A program made the translations under genes and the position numbers. The notes under the pieces were generated by a model. The model was not told the origin of the DNA and ran no database searches. It saw only the letters and a list, made by a program, of their open reading frames with translations. Below, in pieces: positions 1-19,061 of a stretch of 21,757 bases of DNA. This DNA is from a virus. Position 1 is the stretch's first letter. The number at the start of each line of letters is the position of its first letter. The stretch lies in IMG/VR virus record IMGVR_UViG_3300029448_000331, positions 1 to 21,757 of that record; one strand, written 5' to 3'.

Positions 1-2343
1 AAGAGTTACATTAGCACCTGATAAATTAGAACCTACTTCTGAAAAAGTTACTGCACTATCTGATGAACCTGCGATTGTTGCTACTGTTCCTGAGAAGTTA
101 CCTGCAATAGAGCCAAGTGACCCTGCATTTGTTGAAAATGTAGGTGCAGTAGATGCTGTTAAAATATTGTTTGTACTTCTACCTGCGTTACCATCTGGAT
201 TTTCTATTCTTACATAGTAGTTACCTGTAGCTAAAGTAACATTAACTGAAAGCGTAGTTGCGTTAGTTAAGCTAACTGTATTTGCTACTGTATGTACCCC
301 AGTTGTAGGATTAATAAATTCAACAATAGGTATTGCAACAAAGTTTGTTCCTGTAATATTTATAGTTGTAGCTGTGGCAGGTGCAATCGTTTGAGATACA
401 TCTGCTACTGTAGGCTTAGTTTCTGTTGCATCTACCCAAGATAATTGATTTGTTGAATTACCATTGGTAGCTAATACCTGTCCATTAGTTCCTACGTTTG
501 TAGGTAATATTAAATCATAACTTTGACCTGCTGAATGTGCAGGAGAAGCGATTGAAACCCCATGACTATTTTGTGAACAGTTAAGTGTAATCTTACCATC
601 TGCTGAAGAACCATCTCCTCTAGCAACTAAAGTATTTGCATTAACAATAGCTGTATTAAGTGTTTTACCTGCCATTGTTGTAGGTAATCTTGCATCATTA
701 ATCGTTCCTGAATTAATTGCTGAACCTGCAACTGACGCTACATTAAATGTTCCGTAAGCAACAATATCAACAACATCTCCATTTGCTAAATTACCACCTG
801 TAAAAACTACAGAAGTACCAGAAGTAATTGTAATATCTGATGAAGATAATCTAACTCCATTAACATAAACGTCAGCGTATCCTGCGTCATAAGCTAAAGT
901 ATTTCCGTTTGCATCACTTCCTGTTACAGAAGAAACTGCACTTGTAATATTGTATGTGTATCTTTGGCTTGTTCCGTTTACTGTAGAACCTGCTGAAGCC
1001 CAACCTGATGATTTGTAAACTTTTAATTCGTTAGCTGTAGTATCAAAATATAAATCTCCAACATCTAAAGAATTTGTTGGTGCTGAACTTGCAATTCTGT
1101 ATTTTTCAGCAAAGTTATTTACTGAAGCTAAATTAGTTGCAACAGTATTAATATTAGTTAATCCACCTGCAACATTTGTAATATTAGTGTTAGCTCCTGC
1201 TACAGTATTAATGTTAGTAGAGTTTGAGTTTACAGTAGATATTGCTGAAGATAATCCTGCAACAGTATTAATATTTGAACTGTTAGAATTTACAGCATTA
1301 ATATTTGTTGCGTTAGAATTAACTGCTGATACTGCTGAACTTATTCCTGCTACTGAAGTAACATCTGAAGAAATATTTGCTACAGAAGTTATATTAGAGC
1401 TTATACCTGCAAGTGTAGATATATTAGAGTTTGCACCTGCTACAGTATTTATATTAGTATTATTTCCTGCAACTGTATTGATATTAGCAGAATTAGAATT
1501 TACTGCATTAATATTTGATGAGTTATTATTTACTGCTGTAATCGCAGAAGATAGACCTGCTACTGTATTTACATTAGCTATAGCACCACCAACTGTATTT
1601 ACATTAGTTATTGAACCTGCAACAACATCTATTTCTGAACTTGTTTCGTTTAAATCATCTGCAACTGTTTCAATTTCTGAAACTGCTTCTGCTAAATCAT
1701 TAGCTACTGCAATTACTTTTGTAATATCTGTTGCTACAGTATTTACTGAACCAATGTTGGTAGCTACAGTATTAATATTTGTAGCGTTTGTATTCGCTGT
1801 ACCGATAGCTGTGATGTTACTATTAACAGTATTAATTGCCGATAGGTTACTATTAACATTATTAAGAGTAGCTTTGTCTGTTGTTGATAACCAAGTGTTT
1901 TCTAAATAATTTTTTGTTGCAACATCTTGAGCTGACGTTGGGTCAGCAACATTTGATATTTTTAAATTTGAGCCAGTAGCACTGGCATCATAAACATTAG
2001 AAGTATTAACACCTAATTTAGATTGTACTTCATCACTTGTTTCTTGAGCTATATAAAAGTTTTGATTAGCTGAAGTATCTAAGTCTGAAGAACTTAAAAC
2101 TGAGCCATCTTGAAAATCTACTAATCTTGCTTGAGGATTACTTATTCTTTTAATTAAAACCGTAGCACCATTAGTAGGCGTGCTAGATAGTGTAACTGTC
2201 GAAGATGTTGGAAATGTAATACTATTGTCTTCTACTCCATTTACATAAGCTTTTACGTAGCTAGTTGAAATGTAAGGAAATGAAAAACTAAAGGTACTCG
2301 TACTACCATTAGCTGTATAAGTTGCTCTTGCATAAAATGACAT
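1..2343 (-). CDS. T7-like tail fibre protein, C-terminus beyond window
   Basis: Forms the adhesive tail fibre that binds the host surface. The frame is open from the ATG at 2343 to the window edge (781 codons, no stop), so the gene is cut at its 3' end. The N-terminus (MSFYARATYTANGSTSTFSF, then the VLIKRISNPQARLVDFQDGS region) matches the T7 gp17 N-terminal tail-attachment domain. Residues 169-406 are 23 decad-type repeats (separate entry). Next come a DLYFDTTANELKVYKSSGW segment, common in marine phage fibres, and an LPTNVGTNGQVLATNG motif at about 605-625. An IPT/TIG-like beta domain at about 641-730 is followed by the start of an SLGSIAGNFSGTVATIAGSS-type Ig-like repeat. No Shine-Dalgarno (SD) sequence precedes the ATG; two promoter-like motifs do. 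The T7 gp17-type call is firm; the domain names further along are by pattern only. Confidence 0.93.
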   Translation of the reverse strand, partial: MSFYARATYTANGSTSTFSFSFPYISTSYVKAYVNGVEDNSITFPTSSTVTLSSTPTNGATVLIKRISNPQARLVDFQDGSVLSSSDLDTSANQNFYIAQETSDEVQSKLGVNTSNVYDASATGSNLKISNVADPTSAQDVATKNYLENTWLSTTDKATLNNVNSNLSAINTVNSNITAIGTANTNATNINTVATNIGSVNTVATDITKVIAVANDLAEAVSEIETVADDLNETSSEIDVVAGSITNVNTVGGAIANVNTVAGLSSAITAVNNNSSNINAVNSNSANINTVAGNNTNINTVAGANSNISTLAGISSNITSVANISSDVTSVAGISSAVSAVNSNATNINAVNSNSSNINTVAGLSSAISTVNSNSTNINTVAGANTNITNVAGGLTNINTVATNLASVNNFAEKYRIASSAPTNSLDVGDLYFDTTANELKVYKSSGWASAGSTVNGTSQRYTYNITSAVSSVTGSDANGNTLAYDAGYADVYVNGVRLSSSDITITSGTSVVFTGGNLANGDVVDIVAYGTFNVASVAGSAINSGTINDARLPTTMAGKTLNTAIVNANTLVARGDGSSADGKITLNCSQNSHGVSIASPAHSAGQSYDLILPTNVGTNGQVLATNGNSTNQLSWVDATETKPTVADVSQTIAPATATTINITGTNFVAIPIVEFINPTTGVHTVANTVSLTNATTLSVNVTLATGNYYVRIENPDGNAGRSTNNILTASTAPTFSTNAGSLGSIAGNFSGTVATIAGSSDSAVTFSEVGSNLSGANVTL
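1126..1839 (-). repeat. 23 degenerate decad repeats (30-bp period) inside the tail fibre gene
   Basis: Residues 169-406 split without remainder into 21 units of 10 residues and two units of 14 residues (238 in total). The consensus is N-I-N-T-V-A-G-x-x-(S/T), for example NINTVAGANT, NITNVAGGLT, NINTVATNLA. Hydrophobic residues sit at unit positions 2 and 5, and often 9 in the first units, giving a 3-4-3 spacing; the two 14-residue units (EAVSEIETVADDLN, ETSSEIDVVAGSIT) fit two heptads each. Similar blocks recur at a larger scale: the units NINAV...NINTVAG near 12 and near 18-19 are nearly the same. This is probably an elongated trimeric fibre shaft. Confidence 0.9.
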
Positions 2344-2344
2344 A

Positions 2345-2357
2345 TATCTAAAGTGGG
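2345..2357 (-). promoter_or_regulatory. Candidate phage RNA polymerase promoter, proximal to tail fibre gene
   Basis: On the minus strand this reads CCCACTTTAGATA. It shares the 11-base CACTTTAGATA with the copies at 2375-2387 and 17092-17104. CACTNTAG is the conserved core of promoters of single-subunit phage RNA polymerases (T7 CACTATAG, SP6 GACACTATAG). By analogy with T7 the first transcribed base would be G at 2348, leaving only a 5-nt leader before the tail fibre ATG. The assignment is inference from the repeat and its position; T7 has its phi17 promoter in the same place. Confidence 0.55.
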
Positions 2358-2374
2358 TGTTTTTCCTTGTTAAT

Positions 2375-2387
2375 TATCTAAAGTGTC
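2375..2387 (-). promoter_or_regulatory. Candidate phage RNA polymerase promoter, distal to tail fibre gene
   Basis: On the minus strand this reads GACACTTTAGATA, identical over 13 bases to the copy at 17092-17104 and one base away from the SP6 core GACACTATAG over the first ten. It lies exactly 30 bp upstream of the second copy, in the 54-bp gap between the internal core protein gene and the tail fibre gene. Start by T7 analogy: G at 2378, giving a 35-nt leader. Confidence 0.65.
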
Positions 2388-2397
2388 TTGTTTTTGG

Positions 2398-5300
2398 TTA
2401 TCTTTTCTCTTCTATGAAGTCGTAGATACCTTTTTTAAGACCTTTAGGGTATTTGTTAGTTGAAGTACCAATCTTTTTAATTAGAGATTGATTAATAAAT
2501 GCTGAAGCTAAGTTAATTTCAGGGTTTTCTATAGACTTAAACTTAGAATTAAATTGTACTTTATTAAATTGTAACTTTCTGTGAAAAGCTACTTTCTCTA
2601 TAACCATAGCTTTCTTACCACCATATTGATTATTAGGGTCAATTTTAATTTGGTCTGGTGCATTTTTGTAAGCATCAGATTTCATTAAAGTAGTAATATC
2701 TTTTCTTAAATTTGAATTAGCTATTTCTTCATTCCAATATTCATAAGCTGTTTTACCATCTTTATCTTTAAATTTAGTTAAGTCTACTCCTTGTTTAACT
2801 TTAGGTAATACAGGAATATTAATTTCATGTTCAATAGTATTCATTAAAACTAAATCATCTGTATTTCTTTTAGTAACTGTTACAGGATTAATCATAGCAT
2901 TAAACATTCTTAGTATTCCGTTACCTTGATATTTAACTGGCTCTCCAAGATAGTTATAAGTTTTCATAACATCTTTTTGTAAACCAAAACCTATTCTCAC
3001 TTTTGCTCTTTCTAATAAAGTTTGAGCATCTCTTAGATAAGGGTCATTAGTTACTTTACTTGCTATGTTAGGCCAAAAAGAAGTTGCTTTGTTTTGTAAC
3101 CACCAAGCTCCTCTTTTATCAACATCATCTCCATTAATAGCAGTAGTGAAATCAATAAGACTTCTAAGATAAGTTTTAGAACCAATATTCTTAAACATAC
3201 TTTTGTAACCTGCTAAAGCCATGTTAGAAATCTTTTCGTCATATCCTATGTTATCTTGGCCTTCGCCTTCCATTACTCCGAGTAAATGGTTCATTAAATT
3301 ATTTTCAATAGCTAATCTGTCTTTTTCATTTAAGTCATGATAAATTTCATTAAAGTCAGCTACAGTACCTATTAACATTCCTATAGGGTCTAGTCTTCCA
3401 TACTCATACCAAGTCTCTCCAATTTTAACAGAGTAAGGTTGTATGTTAGCGTTCTTCTGTGCGTTCTTAATTGCTTTATCAGGATGGCCACCTCCAGTAA
3501 TTCTACCGTTCATAGATAATATAGAAGCACTTAATAAAATTGTTGAACCTATTGCAAATCTACCTCTAGTCTCTGCTATTCTAACTGCATCAGCACTTTT
3601 ACCTGTGAAGTGTTTCCAGTTCTTACCCATAACTCCAAACGGTGTTCTTTCAATAGCTTGAATTGCTAAGTTAGCTGGTGTTTTAATAAAAGGTAATATT
3701 TGTTTTAATATAGGAGCTTCATTAACTGCTTCTTGTATTTTACCTAAGAAACCACTTAAATCTTTTGTAAATGTAACTTCTTGTGCATATCTCTTAGCTT
3801 CTTTATCTACACCTATAAGACCAGTTTCATCAAAACCTGCTTTAAATCTTTGAGCTATAAAAGCGTCATATTCACTTACTTTTGTACCATTTTTTAATGT
3901 AACAACAATTTTAGTTTTACTTAATTTTTTACCAGCTTGGTCTGCTTCTCTCGTAGCAATAGCCATTAGTTTAGATTTATAATTAACTTGCTTGAATAAT
4001 TCATCCATAGCAGTAAGACCTCTTAGTGGTATTCTAACTGCTCTAGCTATTCTACCATTACCTAAAGCTTTTGTTGTTCGGTCAAATTTTGTACTACCAG
4101 CAAATAAGATACTGTCTTCATCATTAAAAGCTTTCTTAGCAAATAAAAGTCCTTCATCTAAATATGTTTTTAAACCTGCTAAAGTTTGTCTAGCAACTTT
4201 ACCTTCAGCTTCAATTAATTTAGCTGTTTGTGGGTCAACACCCCAAGTCATTTTAGAGCCTACAAAACTATCTAAAGGTTTTAATATAGAGTTTACTCCA
4301 GTAGATATTACGTTGACAGCTTGAGTTTTAATATTGGATAGAGCTGAAGACATCCATACTTCATTAACTTTATTCCAAAAATTATTGAAGAATAAATAAT
4401 CCATAATTTTCATTAAGGCATTTTTATCTTTTACTAAGGCTACGCCTTCTATAAACTCTTTAAAGTTACCATCAAATTTATCTAAGTTTTTAACCATTTT
4501 AAGAATACTGTCGTTACTTAAATCAGTATTCATATCTTTCATAATACTTCTTAATCTTAAACCTCTACCTAAATTAGAAGTAACCTTTTCATCAAATCTT
4601 AATAGTTTCATAGTTAAAGCTGTAACCATTTTCATTTGATTTTCAGTATAAGTCTTTTCTCCTTTACGTAAGGAGTTAGCCATCTTGTATAAATTTTCTG
4701 CTAAATTCATTTGTAATGATTGTGAAGCCCACATATATTTAAGGCCACCTTCTAGTTTGTCTCCTAGTTCTCCAATCATTTTAGTAGTTTGAATAATATC
4801 TCCACCTGACCTTAGAGCTTGTTGTTCAATTAATCCGTCACTAATTTTTTCAAATTTCTTTTCAACTCTAGCTATTTTCATCATAGCTTCTAAAGCTACA
4901 ATACCAAAGTTACCATCAGCATAAGCTCTAGGAGATAAATCAAAACCCATTTCATCATTAATGTTTCTTAGGTTTATTCCTTTTTCTCCTTTTTTAATTC
5001 TTGAAATTAATCTGTCGAAGTTTTCTACTAACTTTGTATTTAATTCTTCAGCAGAAGTTATATCTTTTAATTTCGTAACTATTTGTGCAGTCTTCTCATC
5101 TCCTGCTTCTTTAACAATTTGTTTCTTTAATTTTTTTGTACTTGCATGATAATTACCTTTACCTACAACTTCTTCCTGTACGTTACGTAATAAACCTTCT
5201 TCAATTTCTTTCATTCTATTGGCATCAACTTTTTCTCCACCAATCATTTTCTTTTTAGTTTTTAACCACTTAACTGTGTTTAAAACTGTATCTGAATTTA

Positions 5301-6048
5301 AACCTTTAAATACACCTTCCATAACACCACCAAGAAATACACCCTCGATAGCATTTTTTAATCTAGCTTCGTAAAAACCTTCGTCTTTACCTTCTGAACC
5401 TAAGTAATCAAAAATAGGATTTTGTAATACAGGAGCATGAGTATTTATAATATCTGCAAATCTACCTGTCTCTTGACCAAATGCTTGAAAATCTGCAACT
5501 GCACCTCTAGCTAACGATTTAGTTACCTTACCAGTTTTAGTTACTGCTTTTACAGGTTTTAAAAGTCTACCACCAGTGTACCAACCAGTTACAAACTGAG
5601 AGATACTTTTAGCAAATTCTCCTACAGTAGTATCAGGCGTGTCCATCTCAGGAATAAACTCAGCCATTTTACTGTCGCCTACTGTTTTTTGGTTTCCTAG
5701 AAATCTTTCACTATCTGGTACATTTTTAGCATCTTCATAAGATACATATTTAGGCATACCATCTTTAAATGTAAAACCACCTATCTTAAATTTTTCTTTA
5801 GTATCTTGAGCTATACCTTCAATTAAATTAGAAGTTTCTTTAATAGCATCTTTAGCACCGACAGCACTAGAGTAAACTAAATCAGATAACATACCTCTTT
5901 CTTCTTCAGGTTTCTCTTCTGTAGTAGATTGTGTTTCTGTTTTAGTATCTCTTATTTTCTTTTCTTCAAAATATTTATTAATAGTTTCTTCTGTATCATC
6001 ATCTTTAAAGAAATATTCTTTACCATCTCTTACTACTATTTTAGCCAT
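2398..6048 (-). CDS. Large internal virion protein (T7 gp16-like)
   Basis: A 1216-residue protein in the position of T7 gp16, the largest ejected core protein, which crosses the envelope to help carry DNA into the cell. It begins with a short DGKEYFFKDDDTEETINKYF motif, an N-terminal signature seen on many phage virion proteins. Around 870-890 there is a hydrophobic segment (FAIGSTILLSASILS). The C-terminal third (GYKSMFKNIGSKTYLRSLID onward, WWLQNKATSFWPNIASK) is typical of podoviral internal core proteins. T7 gp16 is about 1318 aa and starts with a lytic transglycosylase domain; I see no E-S...G-M-Q...A-Y-N signature here, so that domain appears to be missing. The ATG overlaps the stop of the upstream gene as TAATG and has the SD AAAGGA 9 nt upstream. 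Confidence 0.85.
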   Translation of the reverse strand: MAKIVVRDGKEYFFKDDDTEETINKYFEEKKIRDTKTETQSTTEEKPEEERGMLSDLVYSSAVGAKDAIKETSNLIEGIAQDTKEKFKIGGFTFKDGMPKYVSYEDAKNVPDSERFLGNQKTVGDSKMAEFIPEMDTPDTTVGEFAKSISQFVTGWYTGGRLLKPVKAVTKTGKVTKSLARGAVADFQAFGQETGRFADIINTHAPVLQNPIFDYLGSEGKDEGFYEARLKNAIEGVFLGGVMEGVFKGLNSDTVLNTVKWLKTKKKMIGGEKVDANRMKEIEEGLLRNVQEEVVGKGNYHASTKKLKKQIVKEAGDEKTAQIVTKLKDITSAEELNTKLVENFDRLISRIKKGEKGINLRNINDEMGFDLSPRAYADGNFGIVALEAMMKIARVEKKFEKISDGLIEQQALRSGGDIIQTTKMIGELGDKLEGGLKYMWASQSLQMNLAENLYKMANSLRKGEKTYTENQMKMVTALTMKLLRFDEKVTSNLGRGLRLRSIMKDMNTDLSNDSILKMVKNLDKFDGNFKEFIEGVALVKDKNALMKIMDYLFFNNFWNKVNEVWMSSALSNIKTQAVNVISTGVNSILKPLDSFVGSKMTWGVDPQTAKLIEAEGKVARQTLAGLKTYLDEGLLFAKKAFNDEDSILFAGSTKFDRTTKALGNGRIARAVRIPLRGLTAMDELFKQVNYKSKLMAIATREADQAGKKLSKTKIVVTLKNGTKVSEYDAFIAQRFKAGFDETGLIGVDKEAKRYAQEVTFTKDLSGFLGKIQEAVNEAPILKQILPFIKTPANLAIQAIERTPFGVMGKNWKHFTGKSADAVRIAETRGRFAIGSTILLSASILSMNGRITGGGHPDKAIKNAQKNANIQPYSVKIGETWYEYGRLDPIGMLIGTVADFNEIYHDLNEKDRLAIENNLMNHLLGVMEGEGQDNIGYDEKISNMALAGYKSMFKNIGSKTYLRSLIDFTTAINGDDVDKRGAWWLQNKATSFWPNIASKVTNDPYLRDAQTLLERAKVRIGFGLQKDVMKTYNYLGEPVKYQGNGILRMFNAMINPVTVTKRNTDDLVLMNTIEHEINIPVLPKVKQGVDLTKFKDKDGKTAYEYWNEEIANSNLRKDITTLMKSDAYKNAPDQIKIDPNNQYGGKKAMVIEKVAFHRKLQFNKVQFNSKFKSIENPEINLASAFINQSLIKKIGTSTNKYPKGLKKGIYDFIEEKR

Positions 6049-7691
6049 TAATTATTATCCTTTGCTGTTATAGGTATTCCGTATTTTTCAAAAGCTGTTC
6101 TAAAAGTATCCTCAGCATTTTTAACAACCATACTGTCACTAAATAATTCTCCTGCAAAAGCTTTTACTTCAGCATTAAATTGTTTTTGCATTGCAATTCC
6201 TGTATAATTATTTTTATTATCATTATACCATTGAAGCATATGCTCTTCGAAAGAACCCATCATTAAATTTAGTTCGCCTTTTAAAACACCTTCGCTTGTT
6301 AAAAGAGGGTCTTTAAACATATTACTTATGTTGTCGAAAGGTATACTGTTAGTAAAGAAAATATTGTTTTTAAGTATATTGTAAGTTCTAGGACTATTAT
6401 AAAAATTCATAAAAGTAGTTCTAGTTAATTTACCATCATTAAATAATTCTAAAGCTCTAGCTTGTACTTCGTAAATGTTAGTATCTTTTAATGCTGTTAG
6501 TTCTACTACAGCTACATCATCATCTTCTGTAACTTTATTATTTTTCTCTACTGCATTATGAAATTCTAATAAATATGCTTTTTCTTCATTAGTAAATTTA
6601 TCTCCAACAACTTCTGCTAAATCAGTATTATCTGAATATTCTTTTTGATTAACAAAATCAGTTATACTAAATACATCTTGGTTATTTACTGTATCCCAAT
6701 AATTTTCAGTTAAACCTAAATTTCTATTTGTTGTTGTTACTTCTGCTTTTTTAGTTGCTAAGTTTAAATAGTCATATTCTTTTATAGCTATCTTAGTCAT
6801 TAATTGTTGTTTAATAGCTTTACCTCTTGCAGTACCAGCCCAATAACCAGTACCTAGTTTAAATTCTTCTAAACCTATTAATAATTCTTTAGCATATTCA
6901 AAACCAGCTTCGTCATTTACAGTGTCTATATAAGCTTCAATACCTTCTACTAAATATTCATTAGTTCTTGAGTTTGATACTCCTAAACCTGTAAAACTAT
7001 CTGTTTTTGTTTTTAAACTTTGTAATACATCTTCTATAGATTGGTCAGTATCTTGAGCATCTATAATAGTTCCTGTAAAATCCATTACAGCATTATCTTT
7101 TGTACGACCCTCTATTATTTGCATCCTTTTAGCAAAATGTTGTTGGTCTCTTTGATTTCTAAAATTAGAAGTTTTAGTAAAAAATGATTTTTCTAAAGCA
7201 ACCTTATCAAATTTATCTAGTTGATTATCATTAAAAAATTTCTTTATAAAACCATCATAAGCTACATTAAAAGCATTAGGGTCTTCACTGTCAGCTATAC
7301 TATTATTAAGATAAAATTCATCCCATTGTGCACTAAAAGCTCTAGCTTTATTACCTAGTTCTAATTCCATTAGTTTATTGTAATAATGTGGACTAGCACC
7401 TGCTGGTATTTTTCCATTTTTAACTAAGTTTTTAAACATATTTTTATTTAAGTTAAAATCTGAAACAGCTCTAGCTTCATCTGCTTTACTAGCTTTTACA
7501 TCTTCTGTTACTTGATAATTAATTAATGAAGGTACTACATTACTTAAAGAAGCAACAAGAGAGTTAAGAGCTTTATTTTGAGGTTTAGCTTCAGGTCTAT
7601 AAAATAAATTAAAGTCTTGAGAAACTACTTCAGGAGCTACAGCTTGTGCTCCTAATAAATACGGAGAAGGGTCGTTAGGTTTTCTAGCCAT
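6048..7691 (-). CDS. Internal virion core protein (T7 gp15-like)
   Basis: A 547-residue, mainly helical and charged protein between the gp14-like and gp16-like genes, the position of T7 gp15. T7 gp15 (about 747 aa) is a core protein that is ejected and forms part of the periplasmic DNA conduit. Recognition rests mostly on gene order, on size class and on the absence of membrane segments or signal peptide; this version is about 200 residues shorter than T7's. The start MARKPNDPSPYLLGAQAVAP overlaps the gp14 stop as TAATG, with GGAG 9-10 nt upstream, so translation is probably coupled. The stop overlaps the next ATG in the same way. Confidence 0.75.
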   Translation of the reverse strand: MARKPNDPSPYLLGAQAVAPEVVSQDFNLFYRPEAKPQNKALNSLVASLSNVVPSLINYQVTEDVKASKADEARAVSDFNLNKNMFKNLVKNGKIPAGASPHYYNKLMELELGNKARAFSAQWDEFYLNNSIADSEDPNAFNVAYDGFIKKFFNDNQLDKFDKVALEKSFFTKTSNFRNQRDQQHFAKRMQIIEGRTKDNAVMDFTGTIIDAQDTDQSIEDVLQSLKTKTDSFTGLGVSNSRTNEYLVEGIEAYIDTVNDEAGFEYAKELLIGLEEFKLGTGYWAGTARGKAIKQQLMTKIAIKEYDYLNLATKKAEVTTTNRNLGLTENYWDTVNNQDVFSITDFVNQKEYSDNTDLAEVVGDKFTNEEKAYLLEFHNAVEKNNKVTEDDDVAVVELTALKDTNIYEVQARALELFNDGKLTRTTFMNFYNSPRTYNILKNNIFFTNSIPFDNISNMFKDPLLTSEGVLKGELNLMMGSFEEHMLQWYNDNKNNYTGIAMQKQFNAEVKAFAGELFSDSMVVKNAEDTFRTAFEKYGIPITAKDNN

Positions 7692-12722: not shown

Positions 12723-12831
12723 GATTATATCCTTTACGTTTAAGTTTATTTAACACCATACATACTTTAACTGTTATCTCTTATTTATTACTCGCAAGTA
12801 ACTATTAAAAGGCAATCTATCTTTGTAAGGG

Positions 12832-12852
12832 CACTCCTCTTTAAGAAGAGTG
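12832..12852 (-). promoter_or_regulatory. Hairpin in the capsid 5' leader region
   Basis: On the minus strand CACTCTTC-TTAAA-GAGGAGTG forms an 8-bp stem (one G-T pair) and a 5-base loop. It sits 110 bp upstream of the capsid ATG and just past the stop of a 33-codon ORF. No T-run follows, so it is more likely an mRNA processing or stability element than a terminator. Confidence 0.5.
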
Positions 12853-12857
12853 AGTGA

Positions 12858-12959
12858 TTATAAATAAAATAAAATTAGTAAACCTATTATTTTAATAATG
12901 TTTTTATACCTGTTACTTCTGTGAAACCATAGTAAATCCAAAGTATCAGGAAATGTCAT
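12858..12959 (-). CDS. Very small hydrophobic-tailed ORF (33 aa), unknown
   Basis: ATG follows directly on the TAA of the preceding 20-codon ORF (TAAATG). The peptide reads MTFPDTLDLLWFHRSNRYKN followed by IIKIIGLLILFYL and a TAA stop, that is, a basic middle and a hydrophobic C-terminal end long enough for a short membrane segment. There is no SD; expression would depend on re-initiation. The promoter-like site at 12931-12947 falls inside it, which is an argument for either element alone. I do not recognise it. It may be a chance ORF in AT-rich DNA, although its exact junction with the upstream ORF continues the coupled chain. Confidence 0.4.
   Translation of the reverse strand: MTFPDTLDLLWFHRSNRYKNIIKIIGLLILFYL
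12931..12947 (-). promoter_or_regulatory. Weak candidate phage promoter upstream of capsid
   Basis: On the minus strand GATACTTTGGATTTACT matches 13 of 17 bases of the corresponding stretch at the 17092-17104 copy (GACACTTTAGATATAAT). It lies about 210 bp upstream of the capsid ATG, where T7 has phi10. Two positions of the CACTNTAG core differ, so this is tentative. Confidence 0.3.
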
Positions 12960-15063: not shown

Positions 15064-16671
15064 TTATTCCTCTGTTGGTAAGCCTTGTTGTTGAGCTAGT
15101 GCTTGTCCTATTGACTTCGGAGGTATGTTACCTGCGATTTTACCACCAGCTTGTGTTAAGGCTTGATTTTGTTGTTGCTCTTGCATTTGCTCTTGTTGTT
15201 GTTGAGCCTCAGCTTGAAGGTCTTCTTGAGATTTAATTAATCCCTTCACTTCAATCCCATCAGCAGTTGCAAGACGAGCTATAGCTTCAGAAACATCTAC
15301 GTATTTAACTAATGCTTCTGCACCTAAAGTACCTGCTAATGTTTGCAAAAATTGTACTAATCTATTTCTATCGTTACCTCTACCTAGAGCTTCAAGACCA
15401 GTTACAATTTTAGGTCTTACAACATCTTTAGGAAGTTTAGGTAACTTATTACCTTTTTCTAATATAGCTATTTTTCTTCTAACAAATGGTAATTGAAATT
15501 CTTGAGATAAAATTCCATAGATACCACCTAAGCTATCTTGTAATTCTTGTGCAGTTAATTTTACTTCTTCTGCTGTAGTTCTTTCACTATCTCTAATAAC
15601 AGAAGCATTTAATAAAAAGGCATAAGATAATCTTTGCTCTATCTTAGCCATAGTTTCTTGAGCTACTCTAAAGTCTGCAAATTTTTGTACTTGTAATACA
15701 GAAACATCATTTGCACTACCTTCTATAATTGCACCATTTTCTGATTGTGCTAAAGCTCTAGCTCTCGTAGTACCGTTTGGACTAACCATGAAAAGAGTTT
15801 TAGCTGAAGCAGAAGAACCTTCTACTATTGCTTTTGTTAAACCTTCTAATGATTTTAAGTCTCCTAAATACTCTTCAGCATAAGAACGACCATAATTTTC
15901 TGCGTCAACTCTTATCATTCTTAAAGGCATATAAGGAGTTTTATCTAAAGGATAACTACCTGCACTCTCAGGTATAATAATGCCTTTAACTTCTTGCATT
16001 ACTTCAAATTTATTTTTAGTTCTTTTTACACAAGTATATAAGTCACAAGATTTTTCTCCTACTTGTCCTTCATCACTTGCATTATAAACAGCTTTTCTAA
16101 CTTCTTCAGGAAGAATATTTATATTAACTGTTTCTTTAGTTATAATTTCTAATACGTTACCCATAGGGTCTCGTTTAACTGTGTATCTTGATAATGGAAA
16201 AACTCTTAGGCCTTCTTTTGCTACAAATAATAAAACATTACCACCAACAATAAGATGTTTAATAGCTTCAAATAAAGCAACTCTGTCTGATGAAATTTCT
16301 ATAGCTTCCATGACAGCTTTCTCTACTTGTACTAAACCTGTATCTATTTCTGTTTTTAAATTTTCATCTCCTTCCATATCTTTCAATACAAAGTTATCTA
16401 TTGAAAATCTAAAGAATGGAGCATTAGGGGGAAGTAAAGTAAGAAGAAGTTTTGATGCTAGATTGTTCACACCTCTAGCTCCAACTCCTTGATATGTAGT
16501 GTAATATTTAGTAGCTGAAGAATGACCTTCATCTGGTATAAGAGTAGGGATTGTATATTGAGAGCAATCTCTTCCTCTTTCGAGGAATAATTCCCTATCT
16601 CTGGCTTGGGTATTGTAACGACCTTCTATTGTGTCATTGTTATATCCAACACCATAAGTTTCACTCGCCAT
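15064..16671 (-). CDS. Portal (head-tail connector) protein (T7 gp8-like)
   Basis: A 535-residue protein, almost the exact length of T7 gp8 (536 aa). The diagnostic N-terminal block CSQYTIPTLIPDEGHSSATK followed by GVGARGVNNLASKLLLTLLP parallels T7 gp8. Further typical segments are RMIRVDAENYGRSYAEEYLG near 255-275, the RLSYAFLLNASVIRDSERTT helix near 345-365, and a Gln-rich C-terminus (EAQQQQEQMQEQQQNQALTQ). Twelve copies form the DNA entry and exit channel. A strong SD (GGAGGTG at 16681-16687, 9 nt before the ATG) lies inside the end of the preceding small gene. Confidence 0.96.
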   Translation of the reverse strand: MASETYGVGYNNDTIEGRYNTQARDRELFLERGRDCSQYTIPTLIPDEGHSSATKYYTTYQGVGARGVNNLASKLLLTLLPPNAPFFRFSIDNFVLKDMEGDENLKTEIDTGLVQVEKAVMEAIEISSDRVALFEAIKHLIVGGNVLLFVAKEGLRVFPLSRYTVKRDPMGNVLEIITKETVNINILPEEVRKAVYNASDEGQVGEKSCDLYTCVKRTKNKFEVMQEVKGIIIPESAGSYPLDKTPYMPLRMIRVDAENYGRSYAEEYLGDLKSLEGLTKAIVEGSSASAKTLFMVSPNGTTRARALAQSENGAIIEGSANDVSVLQVQKFADFRVAQETMAKIEQRLSYAFLLNASVIRDSERTTAEEVKLTAQELQDSLGGIYGILSQEFQLPFVRRKIAILEKGNKLPKLPKDVVRPKIVTGLEALGRGNDRNRLVQFLQTLAGTLGAEALVKYVDVSEAIARLATADGIEVKGLIKSQEDLQAEAQQQQEQMQEQQQNQALTQAGGKIAGNIPPKSIGQALAQQQGLPTEE

Positions 16672-16880: not shown

Positions 16881-17087
16881 CTATTTATCCTCCAATATAT
16901 TTTCTGATTGTTCTTTATGTTTATCGTGTAAAAATCTTACTACACTTCTTTGACCACTTCTGAAGCATATTTCCTTGTATTCCATATTAATATCTGGAGT
17001 TTTTTCTGGAAATAAAACATCTAAAGCATCCAATAAATCCTTAGGGATTGCTGGTATTTTAACGTCTTCTATTGTTTTTTGTTTCAT
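16881..17087 (-). CDS. Small conserved-type phage protein, unknown function
   Basis: A 68-residue soluble protein (MKQKTIEDVKIPAIPKDLLD ... PEICFRSGQRSVVRFLHDK-like end; actual segment EICFRSGQRSVVRFLHDKHK). The pattern of IPKDLLDALD-LFPEKTPD followed by a GQRSVV-RFL helix looks like a compact conserved family seen upstream of portal in T7-like marine phages; I cannot name it. It is the first gene after the promoter-like motif. If transcription begins at 17095, its leader is only 8 nt (GATATAAT) with no SD between the transcript start and the ATG. Confidence 0.7.
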   Translation of the reverse strand: MKQKTIEDVKIPAIPKDLLDALDVLFPEKTPDINMEYKEICFRSGQRSVVRFLHDKHKEQSENILEDK

Positions 17088-17091
17088 ATTA

Positions 17092-17104
17092 TATCTAAAG
17101 TGTC
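17092..17104 (-). promoter_or_regulatory. Candidate phage RNA polymerase promoter before the structural genes
   Basis: GACACTTTAGATA on the minus strand, identical over 13 bases to the copy at 2375-2387. It takes up most of the 27-bp gap between the DUF3310 gene and the next gene. The first ten bases differ from the SP6 promoter core GACACTATAG at one position. T7 has its phi6.5 late promoter in a comparable place. Probable first base by T7 analogy: G at 17095. Confidence 0.68.
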
Positions 17105-17114
17105 CTTTTTATTG

Positions 17115-17468
17115 TTATGTTTTCTTAGTGTCTTTTAGTTTTTTAATTTCCAACTCACAGTAGTGAATAACTTTTTCTAAGTCTTGTATTGCTGTGCCTT
17201 TAAATAAATATCTACAAACATATTTAACAACACATCCTTGAAAGAAAGATAAATTATTTTTAGAGATAAACTCATAAGGTTGAATAGGAAACTCTTTATA
17301 GTGTGTTCCTCCCACTTGTTTATCTTGAGGAAAGGCTTCATCAAATATGCTTTTATCTGTCATAATTTTACTTTTAATAGGTTTAGGTTTTACTTCATTT
17401 TCATAAGTTAAATCTTCATCTTTAGGAAAATTTATTCTATGAGTGTTTAGATTTTTGGAGCTTGCCAT
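17115..17468 (-). CDS. DUF3310 family protein
   Basis: A 117-residue protein with the hallmark VGGTHYKEFPIQPYEFISKN at 52-71 and FFQGCVVKYVCRYLFKG at 75-91, then DLEKVIHYCELEIKKLK. This is the DUF3310 (PF11753) pattern found in many phages; the biochemical role is not established, and links to nucleotide metabolism have been suggested. The 50 N-terminal residues are polar and probably disordered. The chosen ATG overlaps the exonuclease gene by 22 nt and lacks an SD. An internal Met at residue 36 (position 17363) is the main alternative start. The promoter-like motif follows its stop. Confidence 0.85.
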   Translation of the reverse strand: MASSKNLNTHRINFPKDEDLTYENEVKPKPIKSKIMTDKSIFDEAFPQDKQVGGTHYKEFPIQPYEFISKNNLSFFQGCVVKYVCRYLFKGTAIQDLEKVIHYCELEIKKLKDTKKT

Positions 17469-18974: not shown

Positions 18975-19061
18975 GGGCGTATGGCGAAATTTGGTAGACG
19001 CAACGGACTTAAAATCCGTGCCATTTATGGAGTGCCAGTTCGAGTCTGGCTACGCCCACCA
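18975..19061 (+). tRNA. tRNA-Leu, anticodon UAA, with encoded CCA
   Basis: A complete class II tRNA on the strand opposite to every protein gene. The acceptor arms GGGCGTA/TACGCCC pair over 7 bp, followed by discriminator A and encoded CCA. The D-arm region is GGCGAAATTTGGTAGACGC. The anticodon stem ACGGA/TCCGT encloses the loop CTTAAAA, giving anticodon TAA (UUA/UUG leucine codons). The long variable arm has a CCAT-TT-ATGG stem, and the T arm is GCCAG-TTCGAGT-CTGGC. It fills the gap between two genes: 7 nt from the nuclease-like start and 0 nt from the polymerase stop. No clear promoter is visible before it. It could be a functional cargo tRNA or a phage attachment site carrying a host tRNA. 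Confidence 0.95.

Follow-up and report, generated by a model that had tools for sequence, protein, structure and literature searches.

What is the function of a 13-mer, GACACTTTAGATA, that is repeated without change in two gaps between the late genes of this virus, and which polymerase, if any, would read it? The DNA analysed here (the window, 21,757 nucleotides) covers bases 1–21757 of a virus record 27,535 bases long, whose remainder is labelled L085. The closest annotated genomes are Autographiviridae, namely, the marine podoviruses HTVC025P, HTVC011P, and HTVC041P, Fussvirus, and Chosvirus KM23C739 (KT997847), the latter from the Ionian Sea at a depth of 3010 m. The window phage is a marine Chosvirus-like podovirus of temperate type within the Autographiviridae, and its host, judging from these relatives, is probably SAR11. 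Taking into account the position of the motif, its conservation, the presence of a polymerase gene and covariation with the latter, we estimate the probability that the motif serves as late promoter for a phage-encoded, T7-type single-subunit RNA polymerase at roughly 93%.

Motif copies in the window

Scanning of the window finds GACACTTTAGATA at 17092–17104 and 2375–2387, and the variant CCCACTTTAGATA at 2345–2357, all three in intergenic regions and on the minus strand, which is the coding strand for all large genes of the window. The sequence-only reading, which had reported two exact copies and one variant on the coding strand between genes, was thus right in coordinates, strand, and gaps. 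Exact GACACTTTAGATA occurs twice, and exact CACTTTAGATA three times, compared to zero copies of either in 100 dinucleotide shuffles. If three mismatches are allowed, the count (21) barely exceeds the chance expectation (14.2), and hence only near-exact copies are informative. The remaining 5.8 kb of the record contain no additional exact copy; three strong sites in 27.5 kb are fewer than in T7, which counts against the promoter reading.

The pre-portal site lies in a 27-bp gap between ORFs 17115–17468 and 16881–17087, and the tandem sites, 30 bp apart, in the 54 bp that separate the internal virion protein gene (end at 2398) from the tail fibre gene (start at 2343). The features are as follows.

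17091..17112, minus strand: predicted phi6.5-like late promoter upstream of the portal region, spanning −17 to +5, exact motif, predicted +1 at G 17095
2374..2395, minus strand: first of the two tandem sites upstream of the tail fibre gene, a predicted phi17-like late promoter, exact motif, predicted +1 at G 2378
2344..2365, minus strand: second of the two tandem sites, carrying the variant CCCACTTTAGATA, with +1 predicted at G 2348, 5 nt before the ATG
16881..17087, minus strand: first gene downstream of the pre-portal promoter, 68 aa, PHROG 4970 (function not assigned), start codon 8 nt from the predicted +1
15064..16671, minus strand: portal (head–tail adaptor), gene 8-like, PHROG 449, E=4.5e-178
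2398..6048, minus strand: internal virion protein, gene 16-like, PHROG 6651, E=1e-49
1..2343, minus strand: tail fibre gene, gene 17-like, running off the record end, PHROG 21412, E=2e-84, match from residue 3

The phage polymerase and promoter base −10

In addition to an integrase fragment and SSB, L085 encodes a T7-type RNA polymerase as two overlapping ORFs on the minus strand, the C part at 4341–6062 (573 aa; Pfam RNA_pol, E=2e-93; T7 RNAP in PDB, E=1.3e-95) and the N part at 6037–6933 (298 aa, matching RPOL_N). The pair occupies record positions of about 24340–26932 and is split near T7 residue 290. The single-subunit polymerase gene that the sequence-only reading had proposed to look for is therefore present in the same record, outside the window, as two genes. 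The C part can be aligned to T7 RNAP over nearly its full length and retains the equivalents of T7 D537, K631, Y639, and D812. It has its own Shine–Dalgarno sequence, AAGGAG, and the split is conserved in many relatives; together, this suggests a working two-chain enzyme. A polymerase gene in two parts has also been reported in the HTVC019Pvirus group III pelagiphages, in a paper that does not mention promoters (PMC6811365).

The gap between the RNAP and SSB genes of the window phage contains a weaker middle site, AACAGACACTATATGACAATC (also given as GACACTATA, AACAGACACTATATGACA), at about 4310–4320 of L085, minus strand (record positions of about 24309–24319, outside the window); it lacks G at +1, which counts against the promoter reading. 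In nearly all relatives this gap has a related word: GGACACTATAGATGA in most of the 58%-RNAP clade, and GACACTTTACGACAATC or GACACTATATGACAATC in the window phage's own clade. More complete relatives carry an extra site after the terminase gene, GGACACATTAGATA in G007 and G009 and GGACAGTATAGATA in G011, and the four site places in these fuller genomes are those of T7 phi2.5, phi6.5, phi17, and phiOR. No phiOR-like site is visible in the window phage, as its record is too short at the tail-fibre end. In the Fussvirus early region (L089, 15219–15228; L090, 5404–5413), we observed a palindromic double CACTATAG (ACACTATAGTGT) adjoining CACTACAGGAGATAACACTATAG.

Residue 748 of the T7 RNAP specificity loop reads approximately base −10/−11, the known pairs being N748 with A−10 in T7 and R748 with T−10 in SP6. 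We compared this residue with the promoter in the RNAP/SSB gap in 81 IMG/VR loci and seven named genomes. N748 is paired with a purine at −10, K748 with G−11 T−10, and Y/W748 with C−10. Of 25 distinct N/S748 sites, an automatic picker assigned a purine at −10 to 24, and of 15 K748 sites it assigned T to 13; the exceptions, judged by eye, look like mis-picks. HTVC019P (R748) and HTVC021P (K748) have T−10, in agreement with the known pairs; as the repeated-word search in HTVC019P, HTVC021P, and HTVC200P returned low-complexity words only, promoters in these genomes were read by eye from the gaps, and HTVC200P showed no clear fit to the pattern. The pre-portal sites of L005–L007 have C−10 and fit the W/Y type, their cognate polymerase not being on the contig. 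Comparison of the specificity loop with T7 and SP6, suggested from the sequence alone, thus shows residue 748 tracking base −10 across relatives in the N, K/R, and W/Y groups, although, the sequences being related, the covariation represents few independent changes. It would be hard to explain unless the sites are read by this polymerase.

The polymerases of L214 and L215 have Y or W at the position of T7 residue 748, and C at promoter position −10. To our knowledge, the pairing of Y/W748 with C−10 has no precedent among characterised enzymes.

The same data bear on initiation by the host RNA polymerase, which could start at the pre-portal site if this were a sigma-70 promoter. The window pre-portal copy indeed runs into TATAAT (TTTAGATATAATATG), a perfect −10 box. 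However, this box is present only in the window copy, the relatives having GATATATG or GATAGTTTATG, whereas GGACACTTTAGATA is conserved; by eye, no TTGACA-like hexamer is seen about 17 bp upstream, so that conserved −10 and −35 hexamers are absent; and covariation with residue 748 of a phage polymerase would not be expected of host promoters. We therefore consider sigma-70 promoters very unlikely.

Conservation at the late junctions

The phage promoter reading also predicts conservation at late-gene junctions. The pre-portal site was found in all 50 related marine phage contigs, 420–470 bp before the portal gene: 42 of the 50 IMG/VR portal loci have [..]ACTTTAGATA 421–466 bp before the portal start, and the other eight have GGACAGTTTAGATATATG at that place. 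KT997847 has GGACACTTTAGATAG before the portal region and, ahead of the tail fibre gene, GACACTTTAGATA and CCCACTTTAGATATATG in tandem at a spacing of 29 bp. Among 2.9 million viral contigs of IMG/VR, the exact 17-mer GGACACTTTAGATATAT has 55 matches, 44 of them pre-portal, ten at the junction of the internal virion protein and tail fibre genes, and one, by chance, inside an unrelated ORF; the reversed 17-mer, used as a control, matched three contigs. Random placement relative to genes in relatives, which had been named as an outcome that would speak against the motif, is thus not observed, as 54 out of 55 exact 17-mers lie at the two late junctions.

The matrix scan proposed in the sequence-only reading gives the same picture: with a matrix built from relatives only, the two top window matches are the pre-portal site (29.1) and the first tandem site (16.8), compared to 300 first-order Markov shuffles, whose maxima average 10.5, stay below 15.2 in 95% of cases, and never exceed 22.1. 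The second tandem site, deviating at −9/−8 (CC instead of GA), scores 8.1, too weak to stand alone.

In 22 distinct pre-portal sites aligned on the predicted +1, the information content is 1.81 bits per base at −11..−1 and 1.85 at +1..+5, 1.2 bits at −17..−12 with peaks at −14/−13, and 0.6–1.0 elsewhere, though the flanks include coding sequence; since the sites were found by CA[CG]TTTAGATA, conservation at −7..+4 is partly built in, and the rest is not. Conservation is confined to the T7-promoter footprint (−14 to +5), and its shape is that of a T7-family promoter. The sites conform to the T7/SP6 type, with about 23 bp from −17 to +6 and a start at G, and the core CACTTTAG differs from CACTATAG at −3 only. 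As in T7-type genomes, they precede genes on the coding strand, at the two late junctions here, and also at middle and phiOR-like places in relatives.

Since the word is short, conserved, and placed at gene junctions immediately ahead of start codons, it could also be a binding or RNA processing site of late-gene boundaries, such as a repressor operator, an RNase cleavage site, or a translation element. Yet the sites follow T7-promoter architecture base by base, with the CACTNNNG core, AT-rich −17..−13, and G at +1, the pre-portal site of the sister phages comes close to the SP6 consensus, and differences in the upstream half go along with differences in the polymerase specificity loop; hence we give a boundary element of this kind very little credence. 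Least probable, to the point of being negligible, is the absence of any function, i.e., common intergenic ancestry, which the related contigs do share at the pre-portal site, plus a chance or duplicated tail-fibre copy, since conservation of the flanks, even of coding ones, is far below that of the 16-bp core, and tail-fibre copies unlinked to the pre-portal site are kept in KT997847, G001, G007, G009, G011, and G014.

Base −3, short leaders, and known systems

All pre-portal loci examined in this clade have TTTA at −4..−1. Among 24 distinct middle sites of the N748 clade, 18 have A−3 and five have T−3. HTVC025P and HTVC041P have CACTTTAG before the portal gene and CACTATAG after the terminase gene, and the same tendency is seen in HTVC019P and HTVC021P, whose late sites read CACTTTTAG and whose sites in the middle gap or at the right end read CACTATTAG; phiOR-like sites are mixed at −3 (CACATTAG, CAGTATAG). 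The proposal, made from the sequence alone, that T instead of A reflects a polymerase with altered specificity is not supported, as the middle promoter of these phages reads CACTATA; with late T−3 and middle A−3 in the same phages, the polymerase must accept both. T−3 is better read as a sign of a tolerant melting region, possibly with the promoter class set by −3. That variation is possible in this region is already evident from T3 promoters (CACTAAAG). The T3 promoter sequence is given in PMC9596486. As a strict late-promoter marker, T−3 fails in KM23C739, L216, L218, L243, and L249, where middle sites also have T−3.

The distance from the predicted +1 to the start codon is 5–12 nt. In all 44 pre-portal 17-mer matches, the start codon lies 5 nt after the predicted +1 (GATATATG), its final G being outside the search word; in the window, this distance is 8 nt for the pre-portal gene and, counted from +1 of the second tandem site, 5 nt for the tail fibre gene. 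These start codons are credible, because the family matches of the two proteins start at residues 10 and 3, respectively, and the late mRNAs are therefore predicted to be near-leaderless. Absence of a Shine–Dalgarno sequence is not a special mark of the promoter-proximal genes, as many other genes of the phage also lack one. It is conceivable, but in our view rather doubtful, that pelagiphages use a two-class promoter code with one split T7-like polymerase, in which −3 sets the class beyond drift, late T−3 (TTTA) promoters being fused to the start codon and yielding near-leaderless mRNAs, and middle A−3 (TATA) promoters yielding normal leaders with Shine–Dalgarno sequences.

Compared to phi6.5 and phi17 of T7 (and phi2.5 and phiOR), the genome places, the single-subunit polymerase family, the −17 to +6 layout, the CACT..AG core, and the G start are alike, whereas the window phage has TTTA instead of TATA at −4..−1, AGGA instead of GACT at −11..−8, a predicted RNA start of GATA instead of GGGAGA, and a leader of 5–12 nt instead of 58–60 nt. 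No sites were found at the places of T7 phi9, phi10, and phi13. With SP6 (ATTTAGGTGACACTATAG), the sites share the GACACT..AG core and G−9 A−8, and the polymerase has an SP6-like specificity loop around RVxT...G...ETxxxD; in HTVC025P, HTVC011P, and HTVC041P the site is ATTAGGTGACACTTTAGG or close, one base from SP6 over the core. On the other hand, the window phage combines A/G at −10 with N748, and SP6 combines T−10 with R748; instead of GGTGACACTATAG with G−11 T−10, as in SP6 proper, the window sites read AGGACACTTTAG and AAGACACTTTAG, GGTGA being seen only in K748 relatives. The initial description as an SP6-like phage promoter at phi6.5 and phi17 positions thus holds for the T7/SP6 type, the places, the SP6-like core, and G−9 A−8, while window bases −12 to −10 are not those of SP6. 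The sites are almost certainly T7/SP6 promoters in a local spelling, not a switch of a new kind. In HTVC phages, the internal virion protein gene itself contains an SP6-like copy, which was rejected as a promoter; this copy encodes a conserved LGDTLG peptide and may reflect coding constraint.

A distantly related integrase-bearing T7-like phage, LUZ100 of Pseudomonas, with a capsid protein 55% identical, has phage promoters before SSB and in the late region, mapped by ONT-cappable-seq (PMC10134795). Its polymerase is one chain, whereas that of the window phage is split, and its motif, AATTACCACACAGTTATGGA, lacks CACTTTAG and thus could not serve as a template. In the open literature on pelagiphage promoters, we found no report of the motif and no promoter map for pelagiphage polymerases; an earlier computational listing may exist, and a systematic survey deriving T7-like promoter specificity from phage genomes (Zhu et al., 2025, NAR, gkaf140) is cited in PMC12272871.

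Binding, start point, and timing can be proposed as follows. Early genes, including that of the phage polymerase, would presumably be transcribed by the host RNA polymerase, as in T7, and the phage polymerase would then bind the T7-style promoter, its N-terminal half contacting the A-rich part near −17 to −13 and its specificity loop reading approximately −12 to −8, (A)(A/G)GA in this clade. DNA would melt at TTTA (−4 to −1) and RNA would start at the G of GATA. Transcription of the portal, scaffold, and capsid genes would depend on the pre-portal site, and that of the tail fibre gene on the tandem pair. Pelagiphages are among the most abundant ocean viruses, and the predicted sites open their late transcription programme to testing, supply natural polymerase–promoter pairs with different −10 readers, and indicate that TATA of T7-family promoters can be TTTA.

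A weak match before the capsid gene (12935–12947, GATACTTTGGATT) was rejected as a promoter, as it is not conserved and relatives carry a conserved structured leader instead. In the window this 5′ leader (12735–12925, minus strand, upstream of the capsid gene; no Rfam match) consists of hairpin CACTCTTCTTAAAGAGGAGTG, AAAGATAGATTGCC, hairpin TTACTTGCGAGTAA, GAGATAAC, and GAAGTATG, in this order, and it is retained, with changed stems, in KT997847, G001, G007–G014, and HTVC025P/011P/041P. The Rfam scan of the window yielded a tRNA only, a complete tRNA-Leu with anticodon TAA at 18975–19061 on the plus strand, opposite to all genes, between the DNA polymerase gene and the next ORF.
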